NCBI GenBank assembly: GCA_021831595.1
Contig: JAKBMK010000005.1
Coordinates: forward strand, 1 to 34,603
Direction: 5' to 3'
DNA from: a bacterium
GTDB taxonomy: Bacteria; Patescibacteriota; Minisyncoccia; Phycocordibacterales; UBA9973
DNA length: 34,603 nt
Shown piece after piece: positions 16,350-17,903 of the stretch. Numbering within the stretch: position 1 is the stretch's first letter; every line of letters begins with the position of its first letter. Made by a program: the position numbers and the translations under genes. The notes under the pieces were generated by a model. That model saw only the letters and a program-made list of their open reading frames with translations, made no database searches and was not told the DNA's origin.

Positions 16350-17903
16350 TTTTTAGTAGAGTTTGATCCTAGCTCAGGATGAACGCTGGCGGCGTGGATA
16401 AGGCATGCAAGTCGAACGGACTTCATTTTTCCAGCGATGCGATTATATCAAGTCAAAGGTCGTTTGAAGTTAGTGGCGAACGAGGTAGTAATACATAGGA
16501 ACTTCCCCCTAAGTCGTGAACAACTTACCGAAAGGTAAGCTAATACACGATAGTCTCTCCGGAGTAAAGTTTTTCGCTTAGGGAAAGGCCTGTGAAGTAT
16601 CAGCTAGTTGGCGGTGTAATGGACCACCAAGGCTATGACGCTTAGGGGAGCTGAGAGGCTGACCCCCACCGATGGGACTGAGACACGGCCCATACACCTA
16701 CGGGTGGCTGCAGTCGAGAATCTTCCGCAATGGACGAAAGTCTGACGGAGCGACGCCGCGTGATTGATGAAGCTCTTCGGAGTGTAAAGATCTTTTATGA
16801 GGGAAGAAGTTTATTGACGGTACCTCAGGAATAAGGGGCTCCTAATCTCGTGCCAGCAGGAGCGGTAATACGAGAGCCCCGAGCGTTATCCGGAATTATT
16901 GGGCGTAAAGGGTGCGTAGGTGGTCATGTTAGTCGTTTGTCAAATCCTTGGGCTTAACCTAAGAACCGCGAACGAAACGGCATGACTTGAGAATGTGAGG
17001 GGTATAGGGAACTAATAGTGTAGGGGTGAAATCCGTTGATATTATTGGGAACACCAAAAGCGAAGGCACTATACTGGCACATATCTGACACTCAAGCACG
17101 AAAGCGTGGGTAGCGAATGGGATTAGATACCCCAGTAGTCCACGCCCTAAACGATGATCTCTAGTCTTTCGGAGTATCGACCCTCTGAGAGACGTAGCTA
17201 ACGCGTTAAGAGATCCGCCTGGGAAATACGGCCGCAAGGCTAAAACTCAAAGGAATAGACGGGGACTTGCACAAGTAGTGGATTATGTGGTTTAATTCGA
17301 CGATAAACGAAGAACCTTACCAAGGTTAGAAATCAACGTGAAAGCTCTAAGAAACTAGAGCCCTCGCAAGACTAGTTGACAGGTGATGCATGGCCGTCGT
17401 CAGTTCGTGGTTTGAATTGTTCCCTTAAGTGGGGTAACGAACGCAACCCTCGTCGTGTGTTATAAGTGTCACACGAGACTGCCCCGACCTAAGTTTTTGT
17501 GCTTCCAACTTATTAAAGTTGTCAGTACGAAATTTTAGGTCGGGGAGGAAGGAGAGGATGACGCCAGGTCAGCATGTCCCTTGATACCTTGGGCTACACA
17601 CATAATACAATCGCAATCACAGCGGGCAGCGACGGGGTAACCCTGAGCGAATCCTTCAAAAATTGCGCCAGTTCGGATTGGGGGCTGCAACTCGACCCCA
17701 TGAAGTTGGAATTACTAGTAATCGCGGGTCAGATATACCGCGGTGAATACGTTCTCAAGTCTTGTACTCACCGCCCGTCAATTCAAGGGAGCCGGGAATA
17801 CTCGAAATCTCTCCAGAAGGAGGGCCTACAGTAAGCTCGGTGACAGGGAATAAGTCGTAACAAGGCACGGGTAGCGGAAGCTGTTCGTGGAATAATTCAA
17901 TTT
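16350..17903 (+). rRNA. 16S ribosomal RNA, divergent, stand-alone
   Basis: AGAGTTTGATCCTAGCTCAGGATGAACGCTGGCGGCGTG ... CCTACGGGTGGCTGCAG ... ATTAGATACCCCAGTAGTCC ... GTCGTAACAAGG; ends set by alignment to E. coli from memory. Confidence 0.97.

Follow-up and report, generated by a model that had tools for sequence, protein, structure and literature searches.

The 16S rRNA gene of a member of Candidatus Nomurabacteria (Patescibacteria), a small, uncultured bacterium, ends without CCUCC, the core of the anti-Shine-Dalgarno sequence (aSD), and this absence is a trait of the clade and not an error. The reading that we favor, with a probability of about 0.7, is that of a working 16S rRNA which has permanently lost its aSD, with selection on CCUCC probably relaxed by a leaderless mode of initiation that was already in place. 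The gene and the elements around it, all on the forward strand of the window—the whole stretch of DNA analyzed here, 34,603 nucleotides in length—are as follows:

16351–17902, + strand: full-length 16S rRNA gene (RF00177, 1334.6 bits, model positions 1–1533)
16318–16360, + strand: 5′ leader arm of the pre-16S processing stem (duplex with the trailer, −40.9 kcal/mol)
18012–18059, + strand: 3′ trailer arm of the same stem, pairing with the leader arm
17866–17889 (about), + strand: helix 45, intact, with a GGAA loop (from the sequence; kept in relatives with paired changes)
17890–17907, + strand: 3′ tail GAATAATTCAATTTGAAA in place of GATCACCTCCTTA, with no aSD (from the sequence and the tails of relatives)
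17896–17906, + strand: possible short hairpin UUCA-AUU-UGAA within the replacement tail (moderate support)

The Rfam model SSU_rRNA_bacteria covers the gene from end to end, and its score lies within the range of full-length relatives, the best of which reaches 1380.7 bits. The leader and trailer form a duplex far more stable than shuffled sequences (mean −18.4 kcal/mol, best −35.2 kcal/mol), and with this long stem the gene looks intact and processable. The original prediction had argued that the gene is no pseudogene, and the full-length match, helix 45, and the processing stem all bear this out. At the 3′ end, GTCGTAACAAGG (17854–17865) precedes helix 45, whose arms pair around the loop as CACGGGTAGC-GGAA-GCTGTTCGTG, in agreement with the earlier description of this helix as intact. 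UGGA follows at 17888–17891 and leads into AATAATTCAATTTGAAA, so that the sequence after helix 45 reads GGAATAATTCAATTTGAAA and contains no CCUCC. Neither CCTCC nor CTCCT nor ACCTC occurs anywhere in 17800–18120, and the claim that the aSD core is truly missing, here and nearby, thus holds. The covariance-model alignment, proposed as a way of fixing the 3′ end, places the end of the model at about 17902, again with a tail lacking CCUCC; the mature 16S 3′ end is accordingly predicted to lie near 17902.

The replacement tail is itself conserved. ATAATTCAATTTGAA is identical over 15 bases in 46 of 142 loci of the order, while the bases 3′ of it diverge among relatives. Of the 82 distinct tails in the order, 75 could form a three-base-pair hairpin at one place, as compared with a mean of 16.8 for shuffled tails; support for it is only moderate, since controls slid along this A/T-rich sequence yield between 3 and 53 and compensatory changes are few (the compensated forms being GTC/GAC and CTC/GAG). 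The tail may thus fold as a short hairpin, perhaps one that serves 3′-end processing. Among relatives retaining the aSD (L258–L317), CCTCCTTTCTAAGGAG or CCTCCTTTCTAGGGAG often stands directly after helix 45. These sequences likely form a hairpin in the pre-rRNA by which the aSD stays masked until processing, and the hairpin of the replacement tail may be a descendant of it.

The first 30 members of the order that were read (L001–L030, from the same genus, family, and order) all lack CCUCC. A pattern combining helix 45 with the new tail matches at least 120 stretches in a public collection holding one genome per species, and none of the 112 with readable tails contains CCUCC; the matches listed include Nomura-, Zambryski-, Taylor-, Adler-, Yonath-, and Harrisonbacteria. 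Because these stretches were chosen by the new tail itself, they show the extent of the trait and not its frequency. Across the class, the exact TGGATCACCTCC motif was found in 77 of 392 genomes and the helix-45 pattern in 226; some families keep TGGATCACCTCC, others have lost or eroded the aSD, and intermediate tails exist (TCACCTTC, TCACTTAC, ACATCTCC, TTTTCTCC, and TCACTTCT). Of other classes, 20 genomes were read, and all of them keep CCUCC. The sole TGGATCACCTCC match inside the order, in genome G213, is probably contamination, since its helix 45 is unlike that of the clade and a normal clade 16S lies on another contig of the same genome. How common the loss is in the lineage, a matter on which the original prediction passed no judgment, is hereby settled: it is fixed across the order as sampled, and further losses have occurred in the class.

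The presence and absence of CCUCC have changed several separate times within the class. On a 16S tree of 83 rows, computed with the tail columns left out, the absence requires about 7 changes, as opposed to 27 to 28 with shuffled labels. Well-supported branches make 4 to 5 of the 7 unavoidable; the exact number is soft, as the tree was built quickly and contains long branches and a number of partial rows. The aSD is present in the outgroups, and loss is therefore the simplest account of the changes. The simplest history comprises one large loss covering the order of the window, separate losses elsewhere in the class, and partial decay in other families.

A 16S rRNA without an aSD raises the question of what has become of the Shine-Dalgarno (SD) motifs on the mRNA side. 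Open reading frames were called by a plain script instead of a gene finder, and only start codons well bounded by an in-frame stop within 60 bases upstream were used. In the source genome, SD-type 5-mers at −16 to −4 precede 2.6% of 349 genes, compared with 2.9% in the control, i.e., SD motifs are at background level before its start codons. The figures are similar for G062, which belongs to the same order and is assembled as a single contig (2.5% versus 3.2%), and rise to 7 to 17% (control, 2 to 3%) in sets of genomes with an aSD. The pooled loci of the order show a weak SD-like excess (19 of 328 genes; control, 2.3%). Outside the order, SD-like motifs occur in 15 of 149 genes of genomes lacking the aSD (control, 3.6%) and in 11 of 60 genes where part of CCUCC remains. 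These motifs, of the AGGAG type, lie at the usual spacing in genomes whose 16S lacks CCUCC (L278–L297, from other orders, as well as L085, L115, L149, and L253–L256), and many of the genes carrying SD-like motifs in aSD-lacking genomes look accessory or secreted. A simple abandonment of SD recognition does not explain the motifs that persist in aSD-lacking genomes outside the order and, weakly, in the loci of the order; relics, acquired genes, or another reader of these motifs are possible accounts.

What stands before the start codons of the source genome instead is a promoter element. TANNNT peaks exactly at −12 to −7 relative to the ATG, where it is found in 58 of 349 genes (16.6%; about 15 expected, p = 3.3e-18), whereas the base rate at other offsets is 4.4%. 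A pyrimidine occupies −1 in 74% of the genes, and TATAAT, TGCTAT, and TATACT are among the enriched upstream k-mers. A box at −12 to −7 together with a pyrimidine at −1 is the pattern of promoters whose transcription starts at the A of the ATG. Within the window, 12 of 25 well-bounded genes have a −10 box at a distance of 6 to 10 bases upstream of the ATG, for example:

1598–1603, + strand: TATAAT, 6 bases before the ATG at 1610 (predicted leaderless promoter)
3346–3351, + strand: TGCTATAAT, 6 bases before the ATG at 3358 (predicted leaderless promoter)
11259–11264, + strand: TGCTACAAT, 6 bases before the ATG at 11271 (predicted leaderless promoter)
31247–31252, + strand: TGCTATAAT, 7 bases before the ATG at 31260 (predicted leaderless or near-leaderless promoter)

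Judged by promoter position, many mRNAs would start at the start codon or within a few bases of it, and an aSD is probably not needed where mRNAs appear to begin in this way. The leaderless share of genes is uncertain, since only about 12% of genes, after subtraction of background, are directly marked by the positional box. A mixture model for the leaderless fraction was set aside, because A-richness confounds it and a control window did not pass. Promoter boxes are rarer before operon-internal genes (13% versus 30%), which consequently need another route to translation. The same TANNNT signal is found in G062, in pooled members of the order, in relatives retaining the aSD, and in other classes; given its presence in aSD-bearing relatives, it is probably older than the loss.

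These observations suggest a sequence of events in which leaderless or near-leaderless initiation, widespread in the phylum, would have rendered SD recognition dispensable and CCUCC would then have decayed, the leaderless mode probably coming first and relaxing selection on the core. Ribosomes would load on a 5′-terminal AUG, and translation of the downstream genes of operons might rely on coupling or on unstructured stretches rich in A. A wider form of this reading, to which we give somewhat less than even odds, holds that the whole order, along with the independent cases in the class, dropped SD recognition and initiates mainly in the leaderless or near-leaderless mode, the tail persisting as a conserved hairpin in another role, e.g., 3′-end processing. 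An alternative that we consider unlikely, if still to be reckoned with, grants the loss of the aSD and places most initiation on leadered mRNAs with A-rich, unstructured starts, as discussed for Bacteroidota, so that the −10 boxes close to the ATG would mark a minority of genes. The A-richness of the upstream regions, the presence of a protein with several S1 domains in the source genome, and the necessity of translating operon-internal genes that have no promoter of their own are all in keeping with it. However, the peak of the −10 box exactly at −12 and the strong preference for a pyrimidine at −1 fit transcription starts at the ATG, and A-richness alone does not produce a peak at a single offset.

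The conservation of the tail in the family could also be taken to mean that it is a diverged aSD that pairs with a correspondingly new SD, which seems most improbable, as leaders pair with the tail no better than shuffled sequences do (−2.05 versus −2.50 kcal/mol in the source genome) and no enriched k-mer is complementary to it. There is next to no likelihood that SD pairing is maintained by editing of the mature 16S 3′ end or by an aSD supplied in trans: while the persistence of SD-like motifs in some aSD-lacking genomes outside the order would suit such a scheme, the source genome has no SD enrichment, and we know of no bacterial mechanism for either process. That the gene is a pseudogene, a chimera, or a misassembly, or that the assembly has failed to capture a second 16S that does carry CCUCC, gains some color from the draft state of the source genome (807 kb in 33 contigs, 95% complete), in which infC was not found although relatives have it. 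Yet this notion, too, has a negligible chance of being right and is refuted by the relatives. The source genome contains one 16S copy, so that all of its copies lack CCUCC, and the single 16S of the single-contig genome G062 lacks it as well; of a second, CCUCC-bearing copy, raised at the outset as a possible objection, there is thus no sign in either. Misassembly, the other objection raised, is excluded because many independent assemblies share this kind of tail, its type recurring in at least 120 stretches of the species-representative collection; helix 45 is whole, as is the processing stem.

Changes in the translation machinery that might accompany the loss were also considered. Era, which binds GAUCACCUCC (PMC10582724) and whose absence in the class has already been published (PMC12641178), gave no match above the cut-off in any class member tested, with or without an aSD. 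Being without such a match in both groups, Era cannot separate them and was rejected as the switch; its absence may nonetheless have removed a second constraint on CCUCC. Loss of IF3 was likewise rejected: infC, not found in the source draft genome, is present in 77 of 79 genomes, the same genus included, and since nearly all relatives have it, the gap probably lies in the assembly. The ribosomal protein bS21 is divergent, with near-threshold matches in the groups with and without an aSD alike.

The window holds other RNA features. A class A RNase P RNA at 20292–20649 (136 bits) is ordinary. At 32318–32952, a tRNA gene (anticodon probably GTG, His), missed by ARAGORN, is apparently split by a group I intron (RF00028, 32642–32903, 53.1 bits), which carries a 105-aa ORF (32385–32702) resembling an HNH endonuclease by eye. 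Directly downstream, at 33180–33520, lies the start of what looks by eye like a serine recombinase gene, its position beside the tRNA suggesting an integrated element.

The aSD is among the most conserved stretches in bacteria, and the existence of related genomes with and without it, separated by several losses, allows the causes of its loss to be asked about directly, candidate permitting factors being leaderless promoters, the absence of Era, and a prior decay of SD motifs. There are practical consequences as well: in much of the Patescibacteria, gene finders built to expect SD motifs could put starts in the wrong place, and annotation of 16S ends anchored on CCUCC fails in those that lack the aSD. 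No clade-level account of aSD loss or leaderless mRNA in CPR/Patescibacteria was found in the open-licence literature and, as far as this search shows, the order-wide extent, the repeated losses, the conserved replacement tail, and the leaderless context are new. Mycobacteria keep an aSD. They resemble the present case in that mRNAs starting at the start codon are common (PMC4633059), such starts being predicted here from −10 boxes at a distance of 6 to 7 bases from the ATG, and differ from it in that here the aSD is gone and the leaderless starts are predicted from sequence alone. A survey of 128 taxa without a consensus aSD, among them Chryseobacterium, Elizabethkingia, Blattabacterium, Mycoplasma, and Carsonella (PMC6107228), describes a similar situation, with SD motifs generally lost along with the aSD, but in other phyla, mainly Bacteroidetes, Tenericutes, and insect endosymbionts. 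Another survey, of 266 organisms without CCUCC, includes single genomes of Campbellbacteria, Ca. Wolfebacteria, Absconditabacteria SR1, and Peribacter riflensis (PMC10783764). Their tails likewise lack CCUCC, they have few SD motifs, and some also belong to Patescibacteria; whereas those are isolated genomes, the loss described here spans a whole order and comes with repeated losses, intermediates, a conserved replacement tail, and a leaderless promoter signal.
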